Source: a virus. Taken from it: DNA of 43,521 nucleotides. The DNA lies in the IMG/VR virus record IMGVR_UViG_3300047472_000108, positions 1 through 43,521 of that record; one strand, written 5' to 3'. Positions 167-43,521 of the stretch are shown piece after piece. The notes below the pieces were generated by a model. That model had not been told where the DNA came from. It saw only the letters and a program-made list of their open reading frames with translations, and did not search any database. Numbering within the stretch: position 1 is the first letter of the stretch; every line of letters starts with the position of its first letter. A program made the translations under genes and the position numbers.

Positions 167-1477
<1,311 letters not shown>

Positions 1478-1527
1478 TCAGAATTTTCAAGATTTGCAGA
1501 TTTTGCTCTTCCATTTTCGGATAACGC

Positions 1528-1536
1528 TGCTATAAT
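1528..1536 (+). promoter_or_regulatory. Extended -10 promoter for tRNA-Ser
   Basis: TGC followed by a perfect TATAAT (1531-1536) lies 39 bases before the mature tRNA 5' end. This fits a stable-RNA promoter between serS and the tRNA. The -35 region (around 1508-1514, TTCCAT) is weak. Confidence 0.6.
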
Positions 1537-1575
1537 CTTGGCTCTCAACGGCGACCACCGTTGCTAGCAGTACCT

Positions 1576-1665
<90 letters not shown>

Positions 1666-4383: not shown

Positions 4384-5424
4384 TTAGTTGCCCACCTTTC
4401 TGATGCTGAAGATGTTCTGCGCCGCCGCGATTGTGCTGGTGAACGTAGCGCCAGGATAAGCATGGGGCCTCACAATATCGCCCGCTGAAAGCCGTACCAC
4501 TCTTGAGCAATTGTTCGTAGTGCTACCCAGGGGATTAATGGCTGCAAGACGATTTGCATCGGCAATCGAAGAAACGTTCGTTGTGAGCTGATTGGAGTTG
4601 ACTGACACACCCTGCCAGCCTTGCGAGGTGGGGGTGTCCGTATAAGAAATGGCGTAAAGCCCATTCTGGTTAATCGTGCAAGAGGCGCCAAGCGTCGCGC
4701 TAACAGCGCCCGTGATGGCTGTACCAACAGAGGACTGGATGGTCGTGAGTGCGCGCACGGCTGTATTGGTCGACGCCATCCCTGTACCGCCTACTATCAC
4801 CACTTCGTGATCGCCGACATTCGCCGAGGCCGCGCTTGCCGCTGCAGCGGAGGCGCTGGATGCAGCAGCAGTCGCACTACCCGAAGCTGACGTGGCATTG
4901 CCAGAAGCCGACGTGGCCGAGCTGGCTGCTGACGAGGCGCTTGCGGTGGCACTTGCAGCGCTAGCCGCTGCGACTGACGCCCCGGTGGTGATCGCGTTGA
5001 TAACCGCTGTCGGGTCGGTTTGCGTAACGCCCAGCGTGACCGACCGGCTCAGCTTTTCCTGCAGCTGCTGCACGATCATCGTCAGCTTATCGAGGGCCTT
5101 CTCGACAACCTGCGGATACCAGCCGCCTTGGTTGGGGAAGCTGGAACCTTGCGTCATTTGAACGTTGCGCAGGATTGTGACCTGGTAGCCCGTAGCCGGC
5201 GCCGCTGTCATCGTGATTGTGCCGCCTGGCGAGTTGGTCTGATCAACATTCAGGCTGACTGTGTAGTCGGTGGCCAGCGTCAGCGTAGTATCGGCACCGG
5301 CGGGATCGGTGCGAACGACCGTCAGATCCGCCGCTGCATAGCAGGCAAAGCTGATCGCGAACACAACGGTGACGCCGTTCCCAGCGTAGGGACCAGATTT
5401 GGCGGTGGAGCTGGAGATGGTCAT
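4384..5424 (-). CDS. Tail fibre protein with T7-type N-terminal domain
   Basis: A 346-residue host-recognition protein. Residues 8-130 look like the podovirus tail-fibre attachment domain: GPYAGNGVTVVFAISF, DLTVVRTDPAG, TILRNVQMTQ, and the conserved QQLQEKLSRSVTL helix at 119-131. Residues 150-202 are an almost pure Ala/Ser/Thr stretch, likely a trimeric coiled stalk. The last 140 residues form a small beta-rich tip. It is short for a fibre, so other receptor-binding parts may exist. It follows the 2057-aa gene, as gp17 follows gp16 in T7. A hairpin covers its ribosome binding site. Confidence 0.85.
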   Translation of the reverse strand: MTISSSTAKSGPYAGNGVTVVFAISFACYAAADLTVVRTDPAGADTTLTLATDYTVSLNVDQTNSPGGTITMTAAPATGYQVTILRNVQMTQGSSFPNQGGWYPQVVEKALDKLTMIVQQLQEKLSRSVTLGVTQTDPTAVINAITTGASVAAASAASATASASSAASSATSASGNATSASGSATAAASSASAAAASAASANVGDHEVVIVGGTGMASTNTAVRALTTIQSSVGTAITGAVSATLGASCTINQNGLYAISYTDTPTSQGWQGVSVNSNQLTTNVSSIADANRLAAINPLGSTTNNCSRVVRLSAGDIVRPHAYPGATFTSTIAAAQNIFSIRKVGN

Positions 5425-5480: not shown

Positions 5481-8400
5481 TCAGTGTTGCCGCATATCGC
5501 CGTGCACGACGCCGCGCCACCAGTCCGCGATTTCCTCGGGGTGCTGCTGGCCCTGCTCAACGTCCCATAGGAATTGCGCAGTGCTGGCGGCCTGGCCGGT
5601 CGGCAGGCCAAACACGTACCCGCCGGTCGTGATGGTGTGCTTGAGCCACTTGTCGCTGACCGGTTGATCGCCTGTGCTGGCGTTCCATATGTCCTGCCCC
5701 GAGCGGCCCACGGCGTCCACCATGCTGGCGGCGGGCGTGACCGAGTAGTCTTTCCCCGCGATGTAGTGCGCGGCCAGATCGCGGACAATGGGAATACCAG
5801 CGGTGGCGGCCAGGCCGATCTCTTTTGCCGCCCACGCGAACCAGCTTTGCTCCTCGGCGTCATCCTTGGGCGGGTGCAGCATGTGGTGCATGATCTGTAC
5901 GCCGAACGTGTAGATCAGCGTGCGCATCACAACGCTGCCCAGGTCGCCGCGGAACTGCACTTTGTCGCCGGAGCGGAAGGTGGCGGGCAGCTCCTTCGCC
6001 ATCCGTGCAGTGTCGATGATGCGGTTGATGTTGTGGTTCCAGAACGTGTAGAACATGGAAAACAGCTTAAAGAACTCCGGCCCGCGCTGCACGGCCGCCA
6101 GATCCTTGACGCCGGTACCGCCGTGAGCGTTTCGTACAGTCTTGTCGGCGAAGTAGATTGCGTCCTGCTCGCTCATCTCCAGCCCGCCGTCCTTTTTGGA
6201 CGTCATGCCCTTCAGGTACGCCCCCATCCACGTCGGCAGTGCCGAAGCCATATCCAGCATAGCGATGCCCTGGTAGGCGTGGGCCTTCATGCCATCCGTA
6301 GCGCGCGCGTAGGCGCCGGTGGCCGGGTTCATGATGCGCAACTCAATCTCGCGTAGGTGTTCCCTGATGTCGCGGTCGACCTCGTTCATGCGGTTGCGCA
6401 TCTCGCCGGAGCGCTCGAAGATAAAGTCGCGATTGGCCGCCCACTGCTTCGGGTTGCTGAACTCCCTCAGTCCTTTGCCGAACCAAACGGTACCCAACTC
6501 GGCAACCGATTCCATGCCCGCGCTGGCGCCGTGCACAAGCATGGTGGAGATACGGTAGCCCAGGCCGACCATGGTTGCCCGCGTGCGAGCGCCCCTTGCC
6601 AGGCTGTTGAAGAACTTTAGGGCGCGCATGCCATCGTCACCCAGCTTGCCGTCGTTGGCGATGGACTGCAGCCAGGGCCGCAACTGGTCGTAGTGCTCCT
6701 GTGACAACGCCTTCACAATGCCGTCGCGCACGGGCGCGTGGGACAGGAACTTGTCCGCATCGATGATCGCCTCGCGAAAGGCGATGTCGTGGATGTTGTC
6801 CATGATCACGCGCGGCAGGGCGTCCAGTTCCAGCAGCAGCGGCCTGGCGTAGTTCTCGTTACGGGTGTTCAGGCGCCCAGTGTCGGTGTTGGCCCGACTG
6901 TACGTGTTCTCGAACAGTGCGTCGCCTTTCTTCGCGCTGCGCTCGGCCACGTCCTGGGCCCGGGCCGGATCGTAGATCATCGGCCAGTACCATCCCTCAT
7001 AGTCGCCATGCCGCGTGGTAAATGGGCGCGGCTCCACCTTGTCCGGCGTACTGTTGCCCAGGCGGCGGCTCATGGCCACCTGTTCCGGCCAGAGCGACTC
7101 CAGCGCGCGGCCCATGCCGGCGACGAAGTCCCAGTCGGCTTTCGTCATGTTTCGGTCAAGGAAGTCCCACACTGCCTGTTCGGGCCATTTCTCGCCCGCG
7201 ATCAGCTTAGCCACGTTGCTTTCGTTGCCCATATTCCCGGCCAACATGAGCATTTCCTTCTTCGTGAATTTCTGCGGCTCGCCGGTCAAGCCGTCCACCA
7301 GCCCGGGGGCGACGTAGATTTTCTCGCCATCCTTCGTCACGTCGGCCAGCGTCGAGTGCAGCAGCTTGTCGATCTCGGCCTTCACCTTAACGCGCAGGTC
7401 GTTCTCGCGCGTGCCGGCGTCGGCCAGGCGGCGGAACACGACTCGGTTGAACACGCCGTCCGGATTGCGGCTATCCAGCCAGTCCATCATCTGCTCCATC
7501 TTCAGCATGCCGGCCTGCGCGGTGCGTCCCCAGGACCTGAGCTTCACATACGACGCCTGCATGCGGGTCAGGCCCCGGTTGCTGTCCGGCGTGTGCTGTG
7601 GCAGCTTGGCCATCGCGTCCACGGCCTCCTGCGCCACTTCGCTCAGGTCGCGCATCCTGGCGTTGTCGCGCAACGTGTTCTTGAGGCGGCCCAGGTGCTC
7701 GATGGACTTGACCGCGTCGACCAGGCCTCGGAATTCCTCGACCGTCATCTGCAGGTAGTGCTTCTGTTCCAACTCGTTGAGCAGCTTTTCCGGGATGTTC
7801 GGCTCCAGGCCCCTGGCCGCCTGCTGTTCGATCCAACTGGCCAGCGATTCGCGGCGCGCAATGTCGGTCTTGGTCACACTCTTGCGCAGGTCGAAGCGCT
7901 CGAGCAGGGCGTCGATCTGGTCGCGGTAATCCACGTCGATCTTCTCGCGCACGCTGGGGCGATCCAGCTTCTTCAGGTACGACACGCCCTTGGCCACTTC
8001 CGCCAGTGCGGTCTGAGCGGCCCGGGCCAGCTGGTTGTTCAGCAGCTGCGAGCGCTTTTCGACAGCGGCGGCCTGCACATCGTTGCCCGCCATCGCCTTC
8101 TCGGCGTTCTTGGCCGCACGGGCTTCGGCTGCGGTATACATGGCCGGACGCAGGGCGCCGATCACCTTTCCGGCGATCGAGTATTCCGCAGCGGCTTTGG
8201 CGGCACGGGCGATCAACTGGGCCGGGCCGGCGGCTTTGCTCAACGCCTTGAACTCCGTGGCCACGAAGCGGCCGCGCACCTCGTTGTGGATGGCTTGTTC
8301 GGCCGCGCGCTCGATGGCTTCCGGCGTGGATAGCTCGCCATAGCGCGCGAGCATGCGCTGGTCGGTCAGGCCCTCGATCTTTGCCTTGGGATCTGATTCC

Positions 8401-11400
8401 AGCAATGCCTGCACCAGATCGCGCCCGTCTTTGAAACCGAATAGTTCGGCGGCGATGTCGGGGTCCATCCCGCGTTCGCCGGCGATGCCGTTCTTGCCGC
8501 GCGCGAGATAGCGCCACTGGGCGGCAGGGCCGTCGCCGTACATTCCCTTCAGCCTATCGATATCCAGCTTCGTGCTGCCGCCAGCGGTCGTGTCGAGGGC
8601 CTTACGATCCTTGTTTGTGTGCGGCTGCTCATCCAGCTCGCCGTACTTGAAGAAGCGGCGCGCCCGCTCGACCGGCTGAGCGTTGACCTCTTTGGTCACG
8701 GCTTCCTTCAATTCCTTGCGGCGGGCAGCGGCCAGGGCCTGCATCTCACGCAGCGCGCCTTTTTTGGCGTTGGCCAGCCACTTCATGTCGCGGATCGACT
8801 TGGCTGCCAGTTCGGTGACAGCCTGCCGCGTGGCGTCGGCGCCCAGCGCCTGGTATTCGGAAAACTGCTCGGGCGTCATGCCAGCGGCTTCGGCGGAGCG
8901 GAAGAGGGGATCAAAGCCGCGCACCGCTTCTGCGGCGCGGATCGTGTCTTCGGTGGCCAGCATGCGGTCCATCACACCGCGCACGTCTGGCATCAGGTTC
9001 ACGTTCAGGCCGGTCAAATTCTTGTACACCGACAGCAGCCAGGTGCGGAAGCGGGCGAACAGGCTGGCCATGTCGACGTTCGGGGCCTTGCCTTCCATCA
9101 GGTACGATTCGAAGCCCCGGGCGAATTTCTCATGCGATTCGCGCTGTTGGTCCAGGCTCATGCGGCTCCAGGCGTCCTTGTCTGGGACGCCGAACCAGTC
9201 CATCAGGGTCTGGAAGTCGCGGCTGATCTCGGCCGGTGCATCTGGCATGCGGGCGATGCGGTCGTAGGTATCAAGGAAGAAGTGGCCGGATTCGTGCAGG
9301 AAAGTTGAAAGATCAGCATCTTTCAGCAACGAAATGGTGCGCTCGGCTGGTGCGTAGGCGCCACGCTGCGTTTTCTGGTCTTGGTAGAACTTGTCCAGCT
9401 TTTGGACTACACTCTCATGCGAGGCCTCGGTGGGGCTAGCTGTGTCATCCCTGCCCTCGAAACCGGTAGTGTCTGTCCTAGTATCGGTTGGGCCTCCCTC
9501 CTTCCGCTTCTCGAACGCCGTCATTAGCCATTTCTTGGCTTCACCATCCCACGTCAGTCGCACGCCAGCCCGGTGATCTGCGGATTCCAGATTCACGCGG
9601 TTATCGCTGCGTGTCTTGACGATCATGGAAGACAGGATGTTTTGCAGGTCATCCACTACTTCGGGGTGATATTTCACCAGTTTCGCCAGGCCATAGCCGT
9701 CGCTGCGGCTTGAGCCTTCTTTGCCCCATACCAGGTCGATGTCGCCAATTTCCGGGTGGTAAAGCGCACCAGTCGCTTCACCATCCTGCTGCGCTTTCAG
9801 GTGCTCAATGGCGCCGGCGGCATCGCCTTTGAAGTCGGTCGAGATCGGACCGAATGGGCCGGTGCCGCCAGGCTCGCCCTGGGAGAATCCGCGCCCCAGG
9901 TCCTCCGCCACGATGCGTGCGCCGCCCAGCTTGGCATACGCTTCTTCCGGGCTGATGCCGAACTTCGCGCCCAGCGTCTCGAAGAAGCTGGCGTGCAGGG
10001 AAGCATATGCGTTCGCCACCTCGTCGCGCACGCGGCCCGTGGCCCGGATCTGCTCCTGCACCTGGTCGTGCACTGCCTCTTTCGAGAGCTGCAAGGCGCC
10101 GTCGGTAACCTTCTCGGTGATGATCTTGGCTACTTCGGCCTGCAGCTGTTCCACCTGCGTCTGGAAGAACACTTGGCCTTCGTGGTACGTCATGCCCTCG
10201 GGATCGGTGCGCATGTGCGGCAGAATCTGGGCATCCATCTCAGTGCCGGCCAGGTGCGTGGCGTAGTCCGCCATAGGGATACACACCATGCCGCCAGTTG
10301 CTGCTGCCTCGTCCAGCTGGCGCGCCACGTCGGGCATGGTCTTGTTCAGGTCTGCGGCGGTGACGCCGGATTGCGCGAAGGCTTTGGTCAAGTTGTGCGC
10401 ATCAATGTAGAGGTCCGGCGCTTCCTTGTCGGCGGTGATGTCGCTGACGAACTGGCGGAATAGGGTGGGGTCGCGCTCGCGTAGCGCGCTGGCGGCGGAA
10501 ACCTGGCTGACCAGCTGCAGCTTGCCCAGATCCTCCTTGGAGATTTCGGCCTTGGCCGCGTCCTTGAACCAGCCGCCCGTGACATTGCCAGCGCCGCGTG
10601 CGGTGAAGATGGCATTCAGCCCCCAGTTGAACAGGGCGTCACCTTGCTGCGCCGGCGTCAGCTTGTCCCAGTTCTCCAGATCCTGGAAGGGATGCTTGCC
10701 GGCGGCGGTATCGAGCGTTGCCGTCACACCCAGGAAGCGGGGAATCGCCTGCAGGATGCCTTCACCAGGCAGAAGGCGGCCAGCGGCGCCAAATACCGCA
10801 CCTGTCTCAGCGCCCGACTTCGTCGCTTCGGCGATCTTGGCCAAGCCGGTACCGATGTCAGGGGAGTCCAGGGCCGCGCCCGCCGCCGCGCCGCTGGCCA
10901 GCCCCAGTTTGGCGGATTGGACACCCACGTCTTTGGCCAGCGCCTTGGCGAACGATTCACCGGCAACGTGCTCGAAGGCTTCGACGCCGGCCTTCTCCAT
11001 CACATAGTCAGCAGCTTTGATCGGGCCACCCATCAGGAAGCCCGCCAGCGCGCCGCCAGCGCCGGCTATCGCGCCCGATGTGTTCTGTGCTTCACCAGCT
11101 ACGTCGGGGATCAAGCCAAACGAGCCGTAGTGATACAGCTTGCTGCCGAACTGGCGCAGTACCTCTTCGCCGCGCCCGGGCATACCAGCCTTGAACTGGT
11201 CAACGCTCACGCCTTCCTTGCGCGCTTGCAGCTCGATGACAGCGCGTGCCTGCTCCGCTTCGTTCACGCCGAAACGGTCACGCAACCAGGCCGATATGCG
11301 CTGTCCGAGATTCGGCTCAGGCAAGCCCACCGCCATCTCCACGTCTTGCGTGTTGGGGATTGCATCGTGCAGCAGCTTGGTGTTGTCCTGATCGGTCAGG

Positions 11401-11654
11401 AGCCTGGCCGTGTGCGGGGTGGACTGCACCAGGCCATCGGCATCGAACTGTCTCAGGGTGGCCGCCGTGCGCACGCTGCCTTCGTTCTCGCGGATCGATT
11501 CGATCGGAATGCCCGTGGCGTCGCGTAGCTGGCGCAGACCGGCTTCCTGCGTGGGATTCGCGTCCAGGCTGAACTGCAGGTTGTTGCGGATCTGCTTTGC
11601 CTGATCGTTCTCAAGCAGGCCTTTGGCATTGTCGTACCAGGTGTTGTCGGTCAT
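5481..11654 (-). CDS. Large polyvalent virion protein with nuclease and zincin domains
   Basis: A 2057-residue protein in the position of T7 gp16, between internal virion proteins and the tail fibre, so it is likely packaged and ejected into the host. Residues about 185-310 are Gly/Ala-rich and may be membrane-active. Residues about 622-718 match the phage barnase/colicin E5-like endoribonuclease family: ALYHPEIGDIDLVWG, GYGLAKLVKYHPEV and WLMTAFEK. Residues 783-800 hold a zincin motif, HESGH (H787, E788, H791), with a likely further ligand in ARGFESYL (E849). A charged helical stretch (about 940-1500) and hydrophobic segments near the end (MRTLIYTFGVQIM, AATAGIPIV) follow. Its ATG overlaps the previous stop. 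Confidence 0.85.
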   Translation of the reverse strand: MTDNTWYDNAKGLLENDQAKQIRNNLQFSLDANPTQEAGLRQLRDATGIPIESIRENEGSVRTAATLRQFDADGLVQSTPHTARLLTDQDNTKLLHDAIPNTQDVEMAVGLPEPNLGQRISAWLRDRFGVNEAEQARAVIELQARKEGVSVDQFKAGMPGRGEEVLRQFGSKLYHYGSFGLIPDVAGEAQNTSGAIAGAGGALAGFLMGGPIKAADYVMEKAGVEAFEHVAGESFAKALAKDVGVQSAKLGLASGAAAGAALDSPDIGTGLAKIAEATKSGAETGAVFGAAGRLLPGEGILQAIPRFLGVTATLDTAAGKHPFQDLENWDKLTPAQQGDALFNWGLNAIFTARGAGNVTGGWFKDAAKAEISKEDLGKLQLVSQVSAASALRERDPTLFRQFVSDITADKEAPDLYIDAHNLTKAFAQSGVTAADLNKTMPDVARQLDEAAATGGMVCIPMADYATHLAGTEMDAQILPHMRTDPEGMTYHEGQVFFQTQVEQLQAEVAKIITEKVTDGALQLSKEAVHDQVQEQIRATGRVRDEVANAYASLHASFFETLGAKFGISPEEAYAKLGGARIVAEDLGRGFSQGEPGGTGPFGPISTDFKGDAAGAIEHLKAQQDGEATGALYHPEIGDIDLVWGKEGSSRSDGYGLAKLVKYHPEVVDDLQNILSSMIVKTRSDNRVNLESADHRAGVRLTWDGEAKKWLMTAFEKRKEGGPTDTRTDTTGFEGRDDTASPTEASHESVVQKLDKFYQDQKTQRGAYAPAERTISLLKDADLSTFLHESGHFFLDTYDRIARMPDAPAEISRDFQTLMDWFGVPDKDAWSRMSLDQQRESHEKFARGFESYLMEGKAPNVDMASLFARFRTWLLSVYKNLTGLNVNLMPDVRGVMDRMLATEDTIRAAEAVRGFDPLFRSAEAAGMTPEQFSEYQALGADATRQAVTELAAKSIRDMKWLANAKKGALREMQALAAARRKELKEAVTKEVNAQPVERARRFFKYGELDEQPHTNKDRKALDTTAGGSTKLDIDRLKGMYGDGPAAQWRYLARGKNGIAGERGMDPDIAAELFGFKDGRDLVQALLESDPKAKIEGLTDQRMLARYGELSTPEAIERAAEQAIHNEVRGRFVATEFKALSKAAGPAQLIARAAKAAAEYSIAGKVIGALRPAMYTAAEARAAKNAEKAMAGNDVQAAAVEKRSQLLNNQLARAAQTALAEVAKGVSYLKKLDRPSVREKIDVDYRDQIDALLERFDLRKSVTKTDIARRESLASWIEQQAARGLEPNIPEKLLNELEQKHYLQMTVEEFRGLVDAVKSIEHLGRLKNTLRDNARMRDLSEVAQEAVDAMAKLPQHTPDSNRGLTRMQASYVKLRSWGRTAQAGMLKMEQMMDWLDSRNPDGVFNRVVFRRLADAGTRENDLRVKVKAEIDKLLHSTLADVTKDGEKIYVAPGLVDGLTGEPQKFTKKEMLMLAGNMGNESNVAKLIAGEKWPEQAVWDFLDRNMTKADWDFVAGMGRALESLWPEQVAMSRRLGNSTPDKVEPRPFTTRHGDYEGWYWPMIYDPARAQDVAERSAKKGDALFENTYSRANTDTGRLNTRNENYARPLLLELDALPRVIMDNIHDIAFREAIIDADKFLSHAPVRDGIVKALSQEHYDQLRPWLQSIANDGKLGDDGMRALKFFNSLARGARTRATMVGLGYRISTMLVHGASAGMESVAELGTVWFGKGLREFSNPKQWAANRDFIFERSGEMRNRMNEVDRDIREHLREIELRIMNPATGAYARATDGMKAHAYQGIAMLDMASALPTWMGAYLKGMTSKKDGGLEMSEQDAIYFADKTVRNAHGGTGVKDLAAVQRGPEFFKLFSMFYTFWNHNINRIIDTARMAKELPATFRSGDKVQFRGDLGSVVMRTLIYTFGVQIMHHMLHPPKDDAEEQSWFAWAAKEIGLAATAGIPIVRDLAAHYIAGKDYSVTPAASMVDAVGRSGQDIWNASTGDQPVSDKWLKHTITTGGYVFGLPTGQAASTAQFLWDVEQGQQHPEEIADWWRGVVHGDMRQH

Positions 11655-13870
11655 TTGTGCATACGCCAGTAGAGTTGCAGGATGTCGCTATCGGTCGGGT
11701 TCTTGATGCCTTTGTCGATGTAGGCCTTCTTGATGCTGGAGTAGACATCGCTCGGAATGTCGTTGACCTTCATCGTCAGCATCTTCTGCGAGCTGGTGCC
11801 GGTCGAGATTCCCATGAAGGACGTGCGGAAGTTCACGTCTTTGGAGAAGGTCGCATCCACATATCGGCTCATTTCGTCCTCGGTCATTTTTCGGCCGAGC
11901 TGGGCCTGTTGCTCGAGCACGCCTTTAGCGAGGAAGGCCTTGATGTTGTCGACCTGCTGCAGGCCGGCCAGATCCTTGCTGCCTGGGCTCGGCTTGATGC
12001 CGATGTTGGCAAGGCGCTCGGATGCCAGTCTGTCGAGAATCTTGTGGTTGATGCCGCCGGCGGAAGCGTCTACTTTGCCATTGAGGTAGTCCTCGCGACG
12101 CTTGGCGACATCGTCCCATTGGGTGCGCGGGAAGTTACTGGTCTGCCACTGCAGGAATTCGGCGTCGCTCATGGCCCCCAAGCGCTCGGGATGGAAGATG
12201 GAGGCGTTCAGCGCGGCGGGGTTGAGTTCGACGTTCTTGCCTGCGGCCTGGTCCGCGATCGTTTTTGAGAATTTGACAACGTCGTCATACTTGTTCGGGT
12301 CCAGGCGCATTAGCTCCATCTTCAGCCCGGCGTCCACTTGGTTGAAATCGCCGCCCTTGGCCACCACGTCACGCAGAACGTTCTGGTAAGCGCCGTCGGC
12401 CTGCTCCTTCATCGACTTGACGATGATGCCGTACTGGTGTTCTGCCCCAATCCGGGTCTGTTGCAGCAGACTCGGGCGAGGTGATGGACCGAGGGTTGCT
12501 ATGATGTCGGCCACGAATTCCTGTTCGGTCGGCATCTGCGGTGCGCCCTGACCGGTACCGAATTTCTTCATGCCGTCGGTGACGTAGGCCTGAGTCTCCT
12601 TGGGCATGGCCCCCAGCCAGGCTTCTTTCTTGTCGGCGAGGGCTTTATCGACGGCGCCCGGGCCCGCGTTGTAGGCGGCCAGCGCCTGAGCGACGTTGCC
12701 ATACTTCTCGACCAGCTTGCCCAGATATTCACGGCCAACGCGGTTGTATTCGCCCGGCGTGTCGTCCGCTACTGGCCGAATGCCAAAGCCTGGATTCTTG
12801 GCCGTATCGGGCATGACCTGCATGGCGTATTTCGCGCCCTTGGCGCTGGTCAACGGCTTGCCGTCGTCGGTCATGTCTTTGCCGCCGGATTCGAGACCGG
12901 TGACGATCGAAGTGAGACGGTCTAAGCCGGAAGGGACGAATTGCGAGGTATATTTCTTTACACCGGCTGAAATCGCTCGCTGCGAGATGCCACTATCAAG
13001 GGTTTGATTCAACGAACCCTGGAAGTGCAAGATGTCGTCGGCCCGCATACCGCCGTCCATCATCCTTGCGTCAGGATCATCCTTCGGCACTACCTGGCTC
13101 TTGCTATTGACGTAGATCGGGTCCTTGTGCGTCTGGAAATACAGGTCCGCATACTGGGGGTTGTTGTTCTCCAGTGCGGCAGCAAGCACCTTGGCGTGCA
13201 CCGTGCTGGAGGCAATGCGCACCTGTGCTTCAATTTCCGCCGGAGCCTTCCCTTGGAGTGCGCCCGCGTTGGCGATCGCGGTCTGGGCTTGCAGGAGGTT
13301 GCGCTGTACAGCCACCGGGTCCTTCCAGTTACGGGCCGCATCGTCCACGTTGAGCTTGAGCTGACCGTCCAGGTTCGACAGCTGGTAGTTGCGGAACTGG
13401 CCGAGCGCGTGTTTCTGGGTTTCCTGCTGGATTTGCAGCGCAATGTCAGAGGCGTGCGGCTTGAGCATGAGGCGCTGGCGGTCGTTGTCCAGCCCCTTCA
13501 TCACTTCGTCCATGCGCTGCTGATATCGGTCGGTGTAGACATCGGCGAGGCTCTTGCCGTCTTCGGGTTTCAAGGCATCCAGGCCCATGCGCGACAAATA
13601 GCCTTCCTTCGGATCGTCGGCCAGCACGCCCTTGAACTGGGCCAGCTGGTTGCGGGCGTCCAGCACACGGGACTGGTTGATCTGGTCCTGAAAGTCGATG
13701 GCGATGCGCGATACCTCGCCGCCCATATTCATCAGGCCTTGTCCGACCTGCTGCATTTGGCGCCCTGGTGCTGCGGCAAGGTCTGGCGAGATGCCGGAAT
13801 CGAGCCGGAACGGCTGCACGGCGCCGGCGTCGGCCATGGGAATGTAGTTGTCTGCTGGGATGCGGGGCAT
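11651..13870 (-). CDS. Internal virion protein with SLT lytic transglycosylase domain
   Basis: A 739-residue structural protein that probably opens peptidoglycan locally during genome entry. Residues about 315-438 form a soluble-lytic-transglycosylase domain. It shows the catalytic GLESGG (Glu327), AKYAMQVMPDTA, AYNAGPG (399-405) and ETQAYV (425-430). The N-terminal 300 residues are helical and Gln-rich (NQAQ, QDQINQSR), and the C-terminal 300 look similar. In T7 this activity lies in gp16; here it is a separate protein preceding the giant gene. The start at 13870 has GGAG 8 bases upstream. Confidence 0.88.
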   Translation of the reverse strand: MPRIPADNYIPMADAGAVQPFRLDSGISPDLAAAPGRQMQQVGQGLMNMGGEVSRIAIDFQDQINQSRVLDARNQLAQFKGVLADDPKEGYLSRMGLDALKPEDGKSLADVYTDRYQQRMDEVMKGLDNDRQRLMLKPHASDIALQIQQETQKHALGQFRNYQLSNLDGQLKLNVDDAARNWKDPVAVQRNLLQAQTAIANAGALQGKAPAEIEAQVRIASSTVHAKVLAAALENNNPQYADLYFQTHKDPIYVNSKSQVVPKDDPDARMMDGGMRADDILHFQGSLNQTLDSGISQRAISAGVKKYTSQFVPSGLDRLTSIVTGLESGGKDMTDDGKPLTSAKGAKYAMQVMPDTAKNPGFGIRPVADDTPGEYNRVGREYLGKLVEKYGNVAQALAAYNAGPGAVDKALADKKEAWLGAMPKETQAYVTDGMKKFGTGQGAPQMPTEQEFVADIIATLGPSPRPSLLQQTRIGAEHQYGIIVKSMKEQADGAYQNVLRDVVAKGGDFNQVDAGLKMELMRLDPNKYDDVVKFSKTIADQAAGKNVELNPAALNASIFHPERLGAMSDAEFLQWQTSNFPRTQWDDVAKRREDYLNGKVDASAGGINHKILDRLASERLANIGIKPSPGSKDLAGLQQVDNIKAFLAKGVLEQQAQLGRKMTEDEMSRYVDATFSKDVNFRTSFMGISTGTSSQKMLTMKVNDIPSDVYSSIKKAYIDKGIKNPTDSDILQLYWRMHK

Positions 13871-13872
13871 GC

Positions 13873-15021
13873 TTACGCTCCTGCTTTGTCAGTGGGGTAC
13901 CAATTTCTTGCCACCTGGCCAGCGCCGCTGAGGATGGAGGAAAATGCGGCCATCCCGGGCGAGATGCCGTCGGCTAGGGCGGTCTTGACTGCGGCGGCCG
14001 CGCTGGAGTTCTTGACCAGCACGTCGGCCATCGTGTGCTTGTACTGCGCGGCGGCCTCCGCCTGCAGCATGCCCGCGTGCGCCATGGCTGCCGTCCAGTC
14101 GCTTTGGGACTGCGCGATCTTCAGGTCGAATTCGGCGCCCATGTCGGTCAGGGCGGACTTGAGCGCGGCCTGCTGCGTCATCGCGTTGGCCTGCAGCTGG
14201 GCGAGCGTCACGGCGCCGGATGCCGCCGCCTCGGCCAGCGTGATCTCGGCCTTGTTCTGCGCGGCGCTGACCGCCAGCACACCCTGTGCCTGGGCATGCT
14301 TGAGGGCGGCGTCCAGCTGAAGGTTGGAGGCCTGCTGGCGTTGGCCGAAGGCCTGCATCAGCGTGTCCTGCTGGATCATGATGGCCGCGCGCTCTGACAT
14401 CACATCGATGCCGACCCGCATCTGCAGCGGCGTGCCCTCGCTCAGATCGAGGTTGCCGCGCGCCATCTGCACGGTGGCCCGGCTCTTGGCCTGGGCGTAC
14501 TGAAGGCGGGAATCCTGTTCGCGCCACTCGCCATGCAGCATGGTCGACTGGGCCTGCAGCTCGAGCAAGCCGGCATTCATCTGGGAGATTTGCGCGCCCA
14601 CGTCGAGCGCCTGGCTCTGCATACCTGCCTGGATCTCGTTCACCGCGGCGCGGCCGTAGGCGTTTGTCAACGTGAGCGATGCCTGGGTGCCGGCCTGGAG
14701 GATGGTGGCCGCTGACGCTGTCGTCGCGTTCAGGGTATTCAGCGCCGCGCCGCTCTTGGCGTCGAAGATATTGCGCTCGGTGCCAAGCATGTTCATCGAG
14801 GCACCGAACTGCATAGACTCGAAGCCGGCCTTCGCATTCATCAGGTCCAGATCGGCCTGGCCATTCATTGCCATGGCCGTAGATCGGGCGTTGATCTTGT
14901 CGAGTTCGGCCTGGGCCGAGAGCGCTTGCTTTTGTCCCTGCGCGCCGTAGTACGCGCCAATTGCCGAGCTGGCCATGCCGACAATCTGCAACCCCATACC
15001 GAAACTACCAAAGCCAGCCAT
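13873..15021 (-). CDS. Internal virion protein (T7 gp14-like position)
   Basis: A 382-residue, Ala/Gln/Met-rich helical protein. The N-terminus (FGMGLQIVGMASSAIGAYYGAQGQ) is a Gly-rich hydrophobic segment like those of ejection proteins that enter the host membrane. The rest is a long run of amphipathic helix with repeats such as QAELDKINARS and AAQNKAEITLAEAA. No enzyme motif is seen. Placement between nozzle and transglycosylase protein matches T7 gp14. GGAGG lies before the ATG, and the gene ends 2 bases before the next start. Confidence 0.75.
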   Translation of the reverse strand: MAGFGSFGMGLQIVGMASSAIGAYYGAQGQKQALSAQAELDKINARSTAMAMNGQADLDLMNAKAGFESMQFGASMNMLGTERNIFDAKSGAALNTLNATTASAATILQAGTQASLTLTNAYGRAAVNEIQAGMQSQALDVGAQISQMNAGLLELQAQSTMLHGEWREQDSRLQYAQAKSRATVQMARGNLDLSEGTPLQMRVGIDVMSERAAIMIQQDTLMQAFGQRQQASNLQLDAALKHAQAQGVLAVSAAQNKAEITLAEAAASGAVTLAQLQANAMTQQAALKSALTDMGAEFDLKIAQSQSDWTAAMAHAGMLQAEAAAQYKHTMADVLVKNSSAAAAVKTALADGISPGMAAFSSILSGAGQVARNWYPTDKAGA

Positions 15022-38831: not shown

Positions 38832-39308
38832 ATGAACGATTTTATTAGGAGCAACCAACGCGCCAAGTTCGAAGCCTGGGCCCGGCGCTTGCAACTGGAC
38901 CCCGATAGCACTGAGCTTATCGTGGTGACGGCCCTGTCGGCGTGGCAAGCTGCTCTGGTAGCAGCGCAAGCTGAAGCCAGTATGCCGGATGAAAAGCGCG
39001 AGCGAGGCCGCCTGCAAGGCCTGCGCGACGCCATTAATATCATCGACCTACTGGACGACGGCGAGCAATCGGAATACAGGGCGTGCAAAGAGGGGATTCA
39101 GCTGGTGATCAACGGTGCCACAGCACGCCTGAGGGCTGCGATGCCGAATGCCGACTGCAGCGGCGAGCCCGCGAACTGTCCGGACAACGAAGGCCACGGC
39201 TGCGCCTGCAGCGCTACGGCCTTGGCTGGGAGCCAGTGCGAGGTCTGCGCCGACACGGGCGTCACGTTCGGCAAGCAGTGCGCGTGCAAGACGGAAAGGG
39301 TGGGGTGA
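38832..39308 (+). CDS. Phage protein with Cys-rich C-terminus
   Basis: A 158-residue protein. The N-terminal 105 residues are helical (QRAKFEAWARRLQLDPDS, LSAWQAALVAAQAEA). The C-terminal 50 hold eight Cys (CSGEPANCPDNEGHGCAC, CEVCADTGVTFGKQCAC), like a DnaJ-type or zinc-finger tail. GAAAGG precedes the ATG. No family is assigned. Confidence 0.68.
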   Translation: MNDFIRSNQRAKFEAWARRLQLDPDSTELIVVTALSAWQAALVAAQAEASMPDEKRERGRLQGLRDAINIIDLLDDGEQSEYRACKEGIQLVINGATARLRAAMPNADCSGEPANCPDNEGHGCACSATALAGSQCEVCADTGVTFGKQCACKTERVG

Positions 39309-39312
39309 TCCT

Positions 39313-40527
39313 ATGACCACCATCGCTTCCAAGGTCGACCTGCGTTACATCGACACGCCGATCCTGAATCAGGCCCCGCTCAACACCTGCAGCGAGAACA
39401 CGCTGCAGACCACCCTGGACATCATGATGAGGCTGGCCGGCCACGAGATCGCGCCGATCAGCCGCATGCAGTCCTATTACGACGCCCGTGTCGAAGCCGG
39501 CATGCTCGGCCCGCAGTACGGCGATATCGGCACCGTCTCCCAGACCATGCTGGACGTGGCCAAGACCAAAGGCCTGGCGCCGGAAAGCCTGTGGGACTAC
39601 AGCCCCGCCAAGCTGTACGACGTGCCGACGCAGGCAGTGTATGACGTGGCGGCGCAGCACAAGCTCACCGGCTACACCACCATCGCGACCAATCAGAACC
39701 CGGGCAGCCTATACCACGTCTTCAGCCAGGCGCTGGCCGAGGGCAAGCCGATCCTGCTGTCCTTCAATACCCGGGGCTACCTGTACAACGAGCAGGGGCC
39801 GCTAGAGACGATTGATTCCGGTGGCGGCGGCCCGCAGATGGGTGGCCACATGCTGGCGATCGTCGGCAAGTCCGCGGCGCTGGGTGCCTACATTGTGCAG
39901 AACTCGGGCGGTACCGGCTGGGGCGACAACGGGTACGGCTTGATCAGCTATGGCCAGCTGGTGGCCTATCCCGATGACTTCAAAGCGGCCTATGTGCTCG
40001 ACGGCTTCGATGGTCTGGACTTCAAATGGACCGATGCCCGGGTGAACGTGGCGCAGCATTACGCCGCCGTGCTGGGCCGCGCCGCCGAGTTGCCCGGCCT
40101 CGACTGGTGGGCATCGACGGGCTTGTCCGACGTGGCGCTGACCGGCGGGCTGCTGGGCAGCGCTGAAGGCGTCGCCAGGTACGGCGCCCTGAACGACGCC
40201 CAGTTCGTGGAAGCGATGTACGACAGCGTGTTGAACCGGCACAGCGACCCGGGCGGCCTGTCCTTCTACACCGGCCTGCTTGCCCAAGGCATGAGCCGCG
40301 CCGACGTGATGGGCGGCGTGATCAATGCGGTGGATACGCCTGGTGCCGAAGCTGCCGCGCACGACTACCTGCTTAACTTGACCAATTTGTCGAGTTTCAT
40401 CTCTATCACCATGCAGTACGGGGGAGGACACGACACGGTGACGGCGGCCGCGCTCGATGCCGTGACCGCAAGCGCCGATGCAGTCGAGATCATCAAGACC
40501 GGCCTGCCCGAGCTGCTGCACGGTTAG
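39313..40527 (+). CDS. Papain-like cysteine peptidase fused to DUF4214
   Basis: A 404-residue protein. Residues 1-230 show a C1-type peptidase: Gln20 and Cys26 in NQAPLNTCSENTL, His179 in GGHMLAIVGKS, and Asn197 in QNSGGTGWGDNGYGLI. Residues about 248-342 are DUF4214-like (FVEAMYDSVLNRHSDPGGLS, FYTGLLAQGMSRADVMGG), a domain otherwise known from large secreted proteins. No signal peptide is seen, so secretion would need type I or lysis. The start at 39313 is the first ATG fitting the peptidase. It lies in the accessory right arm, with no role in phage growth evident. DUF4214 function is unknown. Confidence 0.82.
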   Translation: MTTIASKVDLRYIDTPILNQAPLNTCSENTLQTTLDIMMRLAGHEIAPISRMQSYYDARVEAGMLGPQYGDIGTVSQTMLDVAKTKGLAPESLWDYSPAKLYDVPTQAVYDVAAQHKLTGYTTIATNQNPGSLYHVFSQALAEGKPILLSFNTRGYLYNEQGPLETIDSGGGGPQMGGHMLAIVGKSAALGAYIVQNSGGTGWGDNGYGLISYGQLVAYPDDFKAAYVLDGFDGLDFKWTDARVNVAQHYAAVLGRAAELPGLDWWASTGLSDVALTGGLLGSAEGVARYGALNDAQFVEAMYDSVLNRHSDPGGLSFYTGLLAQGMSRADVMGGVINAVDTPGAEAAAHDYLLNLTNLSSFISITMQYGGGHDTVTAAALDAVTASADAVEIIKTGLPELLHG

Positions 40528-42411: not shown

Positions 42412-42756
42412 ATGATCAACGCCAAGGCCGCTGCGGCGATGCTCGGTATTGACCAGCGAACAATGTATGACCTGGCGGCGCCATTAGGGCCGATCCCGTG
42501 TCACCGGATGGGGAAGAAGTGCATCCGTTTCGAAGAACAAGACATCCTCGACTACAAAGCAAAATGCCGATACGTTACGATCAACGCAACCGTCGCTGGC
42601 GATTTGAGTTTAACAAAGTCATCCAAGGCGAGCGCGTTCGCGCCTCAAAACTGCTTCCAACGGCTTGGGGTCGCGACGAAGCCCAAGCGTTCGACCAAAG
42701 CGAAAGCGCCCGCATCTACGGCGTTGCAACTGGTGCCATCAAAGCGCGCATCCTGA
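42412..42756 (+). CDS. Excisionase-like helix-turn-helix protein
   Basis: A 114-residue protein. Residues 1-50 are a MerR/excisionase-type winged helix (INAKAAAAMLGIDQRTMYDL, GKKCIRFEEQDILDY), which fits a directionality factor for the integrase. The C-terminal 60 residues are basic and Ser/Ala-rich, and are encoded in DNA that also encodes the integrase N-terminus. GAGGAGGG lies 5 bases before the ATG. Confidence 0.72.
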   Translation: MINAKAAAAMLGIDQRTMYDLAAPLGPIPCHRMGKKCIRFEEQDILDYKAKCRYVTINATVAGDLSLTKSSKASAFAPQNCFQRLGVATKPKRSTKAKAPASTALQLVPSKRAS

Positions 42757-43521
42757 TCCAATCGGCGGTTGATCTCTATGTAGATTATCGCTGCCCGCAT
42801 TTGAAGACTGGCGATGCCATCATCAAAGAGCTGGCGCTGATCCATGGCTACTTCGATGGCCGCTACCTGGACGAGCTGGCCGACGTGGCGAAGGAAATCA
42901 CCGATGCAGAAACAGACTGGGCGCCAGCCACGCTGAAGGCCCGCCTGTCTTACCTTCGCTCAGCTTGCAACTACGCGCGCGCCATGCACGGCCTGGGCGA
43001 CCAGAACGCACGCTATTCCGTCCCGATGCCGATCGTGCGCAATGAGCGCCACTTCTATGAGGGCCGCGCGGCAATGCTCAAGATCGCGCGGCGGTGCAGT
43101 GACCGGCAGGCGAGGGCGCTGGTGCGCATTTCGTTCTATAGCGGCATGCGCCTGGGCGAAACTCTGAGCTTGGGCGGGGAGGGGCAGATCCACGACGATG
43201 GCTTCATCCTCACCGATACAAAGAACGGCGAAAGAAGGTTCGTGCCGATGCACCCGCGCGTGCGCGTGCTCTTGCGTTACCTTCCGTTTAAATGGGGGAA
43301 GTTGTGGCTCCAGCGGCTGATCCGGCGCGCCATGACCGAGGCAGGCTTCGACTACCTGCACCTGCACGACCTGCGTCACAGCACGGCTAGCGAGATGGTG
43401 AATAACGGGGTGGACCTGTACACGGTCGGAGGGGTCCTTGGCCACAAGGACAAGAAGACGACGCAGCGATACGCGCACCTGGCGCGCGGCACGTTGGCCG
43501 ATGCGATCAAGAAGGTAGGCT
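42564..43521 (+). CDS. int: Tyrosine integrase (runs off the window)
   Basis: At least 319 residues. The start at ATG 42564 gives the family N-terminus MPIRYDQRNRRWRFEFNKVI, and the middle is a SAM-like core-binding domain. The catalytic domain has Arg196 (SGMRLGE), Lys220 (TKNGERR), His268-x-x-Arg271 (HDLRHS), His294 (LGHKDKK) and Tyr303 (QRYAHL), so all active residues are present. Only the last few residues are missing. It overlaps the excisionase-like gene by 193 bases in another frame and has a weak ribosome binding site. It would recombine the tRNA-Ser 3' end with attP. Confidence 0.93.
   Translation, partial: MPIRYDQRNRRWRFEFNKVIQGERVRASKLLPTAWGRDEAQAFDQSESARIYGVATGAIKARILIQSAVDLYVDYRCPHLKTGDAIIKELALIHGYFDGRYLDELADVAKEITDAETDWAPATLKARLSYLRSACNYARAMHGLGDQNARYSVPMPIVRNERHFYEGRAAMLKIARRCSDRQARALVRISFYSGMRLGETLSLGGEGQIHDDGFILTDTKNGERRFVPMHPRVRVLLRYLPFKWGKLWLQRLIRRAMTEAGFDYLHLHDLRHSTASEMVNNGVDLYTVGGVLGHKDKKTTQRYAHLARGTLADAIKKVG

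Follow-up and report, generated by a model that had tools for sequence, protein, structure and literature searches.

What a predicted ribonuclease and a zincin-like domain are doing side by side in one large phage protein is the question raised by the window analysed here, the whole 43,521-nucleotide IMG/VR virus record IMGVR_UViG_3300047472_000108 (positions 1 to 43,521), which contains a prophage. The protein, 2057 amino acids (aa) long, is encoded at 5481..11654 on the minus strand with an ATG start, and by gene order and by homology along its length it is the counterpart of Bbp10 of Bordetella phage BPP-1. In our reading, to which we give a probability of roughly 0.6, the phage is a temperate podovirus of the BPP-1 type and the protein is its Bbp10-type ejection protein: a chassis that delivers an exchangeable effector, in this case a predicted RNase, with the zincin acting at or near the junction. 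The chassis would consist of an N-terminal region with an LPD22 domain, the zincin-like domain and a 1137-aa core, the cargo slot lying directly before the zincin. What the sequences show directly is that the domains are there with conserved active sites, that zincin and core stay constant, and that slot content has been exchanged among close relatives.

Domains of the large protein

The slot of the window protein is occupied by a PBECR1 domain (residues 599-718, 9501..9860; all features of this protein are on the minus strand). The initial annotation had read a barnase/colicin E5-type nuclease here from the motifs HPEIGDIDLVWG, GLAKLVKYHPEV and WLMTAFEK within residues 622-718 (DNA 9501-9791); the motifs are found at these residues, and the Pfam family PF18809 (PBECR1) was matched at residues 630-719 with 39.1 bits in the whole protein and 44.9 bits in the isolated segment, above the cut-off of 27.6. 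Residues H663 (9666..9668), W709 and T712 (9519..9521), as well as the stretch IDLVWG, are invariant across 35 aligned PBECR1 domains. The AlphaFold model of the domain, with a predicted local distance difference test (pLDDT) score of about 95 across most of its length, comprises helix segments followed by four strands (model residues 94-98, 102-106, 110-118, and 121-131), with H663 (model residue 79) in the helical part and T712 (model residue 128) in the last strand. This placement fits the arrangement described for BECR nucleases, in which a helix-plus-four-strand core carries a histidine in the N-terminal helix and a threonine or serine in strand 4 (PMC5512222), and H663 and T712 are the predicted catalytic residues. 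A fold search of PDB with the domain returned only toxin-antitoxin proteins among the top ten matches (RelE type, S. pneumoniae module), none of them significant (best E-value 0.12). The domain is a predicted RNase of the metal-independent type. It is conceivable that it binds RNA and no longer cuts it, as was proposed for the C-terminal domain of Mu MuF (PMC5512222), but the retention of both H663 and T712 here and in all 35 aligned domains speaks against such a loss, and we regard it as distinctly improbable.

PHROG 13543 matches residues 601-751, while PHROG 9880 spans residues 738-2054, so that the nuclease and the remainder have their best matches in different phage families. The guanine-plus-cytosine (GC) content has its minimum within the gene at 9400-9799 (56.5%, vs 59-66% in the rest of the gene), which would fit an import of the nuclease without proving it. 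PBECR1 domains from unrelated backbones reach identities of up to 67%, almost matching those from Bbp10 relatives. A PBECR1 tree carried too little signal for counting transfers between backbones, and a single origin on the Bbp10-type backbone is possible.

The nuclease is followed by a linker (residues 719-761, 9372..9500; pLDDT mostly below 50), which forms the junction of cargo and chassis, and by the zincin-like (MPTase) domain (residues 756-920, 8895..9389). A short TDT...DDTA motif observed after PBECR1 (window 9402-9500, minus strand) also occurs in unrelated backbones that have no zincin (L003, L065, and L081).

The zincin motif HESGH occupies residues 787-791 (9282..9296), as the initial annotation had placed it. 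H787, E788, H791 and E842 (9129..9131) are invariant in all 114 aligned homologues; E849 (9108..9110), the third zinc ligand proposed in that annotation and likewise located correctly, is kept in 112 of them. The stricter conservation of E842, and a forced profile alignment in which the stretch HE(842)KFA coincides with the ExxA motif of Peptidase_M78, make this residue the more probable third ligand. None of the phage homologues inspected lacked the HExxH motif, not even those in which the alignment had seemed to miss it: it was found in Xanthomonas phages whose tblastn match started past the motif, and the alignments of Usaquen, Bolivar and 10KY502B had been split by an insert separating the two halves. 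Phages CP2 and AF (L246 and L249) have, upstream of the conserved zincin, a second HExxH of another sequence type (HEVLHG and HEVQHA).

Profile comparisons gave a less definite picture. In hhalign the domain was aligned to Peptidase_M78 with 67% probability (single-comparison E-value 5e-5; at most 0.4% in reversed controls) and to MPTase-PolyVal (PF18818) with 31% (E-value 5e-4). The latter, named in the initial annotation alongside the barnase/ColE5 family, gave no Pfam match in the large protein, nor was it found by a family search of the window. A PDB sequence search with the zincin yielded chance-level matches only (TraO 0.017, lethal factor 0.59, Spartan 1.5). A model of the domain on its own (pLDDT 82) contains both the HExxH helix and the later glutamate helix. 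The assignment as a putative zincin draws on conservation, on the weak match to Peptidase_M78 and on published analyses of the CLCA_X and MPTase families; it is sound on conservation and weak on profiles. Zincins are the commonest domain of polyvalent proteins (PMC5512222), and residues 700-1000 of Bbp10, the counterpart of this region, served as one of the seeds of the CLCA_X zincin family in 2013 (PMC3650047). The published CLCA_X consensus HExxHxxxD is present here (D795), whereas 31 of 51 subfamily relatives have a glutamate at that position.

The LPD22 domain at the N terminus (residues 26-107, 11334..11579) agrees with the polyvalent-protein setting suggested by the initial annotation; PF18834 scored 28.7 bits (cut-off 28.6) here and 53-96 bits in PBECR1-bearing relatives. 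Ahead of the slot, residues 361-589 (9888..10574) form a conserved region with 21-36% identity to relatives both with and without PBECR1. The core (residues 921-2057, 5484..8894) is covered by PHROG 9880; no PDB relative of it was found, and a profile of the whole chassis had no PDB match either. DpoZ, DUF5536 and other stray family matches were far under the cut-off.

Exchange of the segment ahead of the zincin

Homologues were recruited through the zincin, independently of the nuclease. Among the 65 with a complete 5' end, PBECR1 was found in one, while zincin and core were constant; the nuclease and the zincin are therefore no dedicated pair, and the nuclease is optional, interchangeable cargo. 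A Pfam scan of 43 representative slots identified ART-PolyVal in 21 and PBECR5 in eight; the remaining domains (MuF_C, LPD3, LPD23, GNAT, HD, kinase, DUF3293, and others) occurred in one to three slots each, and further homologues beyond this tally contained RadC, SLT with M15 peptidase, and GGDEF domains. Two contigs have DUF3293 matches before the zincin (L017:4041-7949 and L035:2-3325), the first with an additional sub-threshold match to S-AdoMet lyase; slot content of this type may possibly be anti-restriction cargo.

The position of the exchange was examined in 37 pairs of homologues with at least 75% identity in zincin and core (75-98%). In 22 of these pairs homology was lost no more than 18 residues from the start of the zincin, and in 13 it persisted for at least 200 residues upstream. 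The 22 breaking pairs belong to some 11 groups of relatives and so do not represent 22 independent events. In the clearest case, L202 and L210 share 95.6% identity in residues 1-708 and 95.0% in the whole part that begins with the zincin, and between these parts have unrelated segments of 528 and 833 aa. L007 and L008 are 98% identical from the zincin onward and differ over most of the slot; in L144/L148 PBECR1 is replaced by the ADP-ribosyltransferase domain ART-PolyVal; and in L056/L057 a GNAT cassette is present or absent (slot of 197 aa vs about 5 aa). DNA alignments of four such pairs broke at the same places as the protein alignments.

Polyvalent proteins are generally known to be mosaics of domains, the Helicobacter jhp1044 proteins being an example with PBECR-type domains and domain shuffling (PMC5512222); in a phage search, jhp1044 was matched by the PBECR1 stretch alone and not by the zincin-and-core chassis. 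The pairing of PBECR1 with a zincin is not new either: PBECR1-MPTase fusions, such as DR90_1081 of a Moraxella prophage, were listed by Iyer et al. in 2017 (PMC5512222), and Bbp10 has the same architecture. These polyvalent proteins resemble the window protein in combining the two domain types in one large phage protein with predicted delivery alongside the DNA, and differ from it in that PF18818 does not match the zincin here and that no N4-type RNA polymerase is present here. No description was found in the literature of Bbp10-type proteins swapping cargo at the edge of the zincin.

Role of the zincin

In the proposed mechanism, the large protein would enter the virion alongside the SLT and internal virion proteins and be ejected together with the DNA, and the slot domain would become active in the cytoplasm of the new host. 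There PBECR1 would cut RNA of the host or of a defence system at an early stage of infection. The zincin would act at or near the junction that it borders, most likely cleaving its own chain to part the cargo from the core. Self-processing is our preferred role in view of the zincin's place next to the slot and of an active site that is kept in all aligned homologues. Proteolytic processing has been described for the polyvalent protein DdrB of P1 (PMC5512222).

Two other roles were considered. The zincin could itself be an effector with a host protein as its substrate, such as one involved in defence, and nuclease and protease would then be two independent weapons. Cleavage of host proteins has been allowed for in polyvalent MPTases (PMC5512222), and retention of the active-site residues throughout the homologues agrees with it; however, the slot next to the zincin changes its content and the zincin itself does not, which looks like a part of the chassis rather than a weapon in an arms race, and its position at the exchange border suggests a role at the junction. 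We consider this unlikely. Alternatively, the fold might be kept for structure or assembly and cleave nothing in the normal pathway. The region of the N4 virion RNA polymerase (vRNAP) that bears its MPTase is indeed needed for encapsidation though the protein is packaged unprocessed (PMC5512222), but loss of E788 should be tolerated in a purely structural domain, and the invariance of both histidines, E788 and E842 in 114 homologues suggests catalysis; the structural role therefore seems improbable.

Among proteins with a comparable layout, the N4 vRNAP (gp50) has been studied best; it consists of an N-terminal domain, a large functional domain, a domain C1 with HExxH and a helical domain C2 of about 1100 residues, and is likewise encoded by the last gene of the ejection-protein block. 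It is packaged and ejected, and its HExxH lies in C1 (PMC12633501). True homology with the chassis was rejected: there was no pairwise match, only a weak profile similarity around HExxH (hhalign p-value 0.002), and C2 aligned with the core of the window protein at p-value 0.19 vs 0.09 in the reversed control, indicating no homology. We accordingly treat it as a parallel in layout only.

Several observations weigh against the reading as a whole. The example of N4 vRNAP, packaged unprocessed, means that a zincin beside a cargo need not cut the cargo. The zincin had no Pfam match (E-value up to 1 with the whole protein, up to 10 with the region alone), and two fold searches of PDB gave no significant zincin match. 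No virion proteomics of the large protein or a homologue, be it Bbp10 or those of phages AF/Ab31, CP2 and OANV1, was found in the papers searched; the mass spectrometry reported for BPP-1 concerned its capsid and cement proteins. Finally, the slot exchanges are known from metagenomic viral contigs, not from isolates; assembly chimeras are possible, yet they would not repeatedly pick the same domain edge.

Genomic setting and implications

The designation as a virion protein derives from the gene position and from the relatives, and the protein is accordingly a predicted ejection or internal virion protein. Its gene overlaps the upstream one, which encodes a 739-aa SLT transglycosylase (11651..13870, minus strand; PF01464, 37.7 bits; by position the bbp11 counterpart) that is probably an ejection protein too; beyond it lies a gene for a 382-aa internal virion protein (13873..15021, minus strand; PHROG 418, E-value 3e-4). 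Downstream, the next gene is that of the tail fibre, 56 bases away (4384..5424, minus strand; PHROG 1640 and others). The position likened to that of T7 gp16 in the initial annotation is borne out by the transglycosylase and tail fibre neighbours, an order also seen in bbp11-bbp10-bbp9 of BPP-1. The late genes are ordered as tail fibre, large protein, SLT, internal virion protein, tail (nozzle-like), capsid, protease and portal, which is the BPP-1 order; the order within the ejection block also matches phage AF. No immunity gene for the nuclease was seen among the neighbours of the large-protein gene.

Bbp10 itself (AY029185 / NC_005357) is 2052 aa long, compared with 2057 aa here, and shares with the window protein the gene order, LPD22, a PBECR1 domain immediately ahead of the zincin, and the core. 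Against L061, an IMG/VR contig taken to be BPP-1, identity is 71% in PBECR1, 55% in the zincin and 33-51% in the core. Database names label Bbp10 and its homologues in Caulobacter phages as lysins or crystallin-type proteins; this identity was rejected and has hardly any credibility, as Pfam scans revealed no such domain and the transglycosylase is the adjoining gene.

A seryl-tRNA synthetase gene and tRNA-Ser(CGA) lie at the left end of the window (185-1665, plus strand), probably representing host DNA beside the prophage attachment site; no exact repeat of this tRNA region of 14 or more bases was found elsewhere in the window. BPP-1, by contrast, attaches at a His-tRNA. It also has a diversity-generating retroelement, for which the window was not systematically searched. 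At the right end, an open reading frame (ORF) extending past the window (42498-43520, plus strand) contains HDLRHSTAS and a TTQRYAH-type ending and reads like a tyrosine recombinase (integrase). Another ORF (39148-40527, plus strand) has a DUF4214 match (59.9 bits, cut-off 23.2) and a sub-threshold papain-type Peptidase_C1 region (18.2 bits, cut-off 20.7) containing NSGGTGWGDNGYG; it is possibly a lysogenic-conversion gene.

Tentatively, and with less confidence than for the window protein itself, the comparison may be extended to the whole group. Bbp10-type proteins could be a general phage chassis for protein injection, in which effectors are swapped at a precise N-terminal junction and the zincin frees the cargo, a counterpart of polymorphic toxins; N4 vRNAP would then have the same layout with a polymerase as cargo. 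The effector cassettes of such a chassis might include, with the same reservation, RNases, ADP-ribosyltransferases, acetyltransferases, and GGDEF- and RadC-like domains. Large phage proteins that enter the cell with the DNA are believed to be armed against host defences. The repeated and precise exchange of cargo at a fixed zincin edge makes the question of how such cargo is attached and released a testable one, for which phages with harmless hosts, Caulobacter or Pseudomonas putida among them, are suitable, and the many slot sequences can be mined as candidate effectors of early infection.

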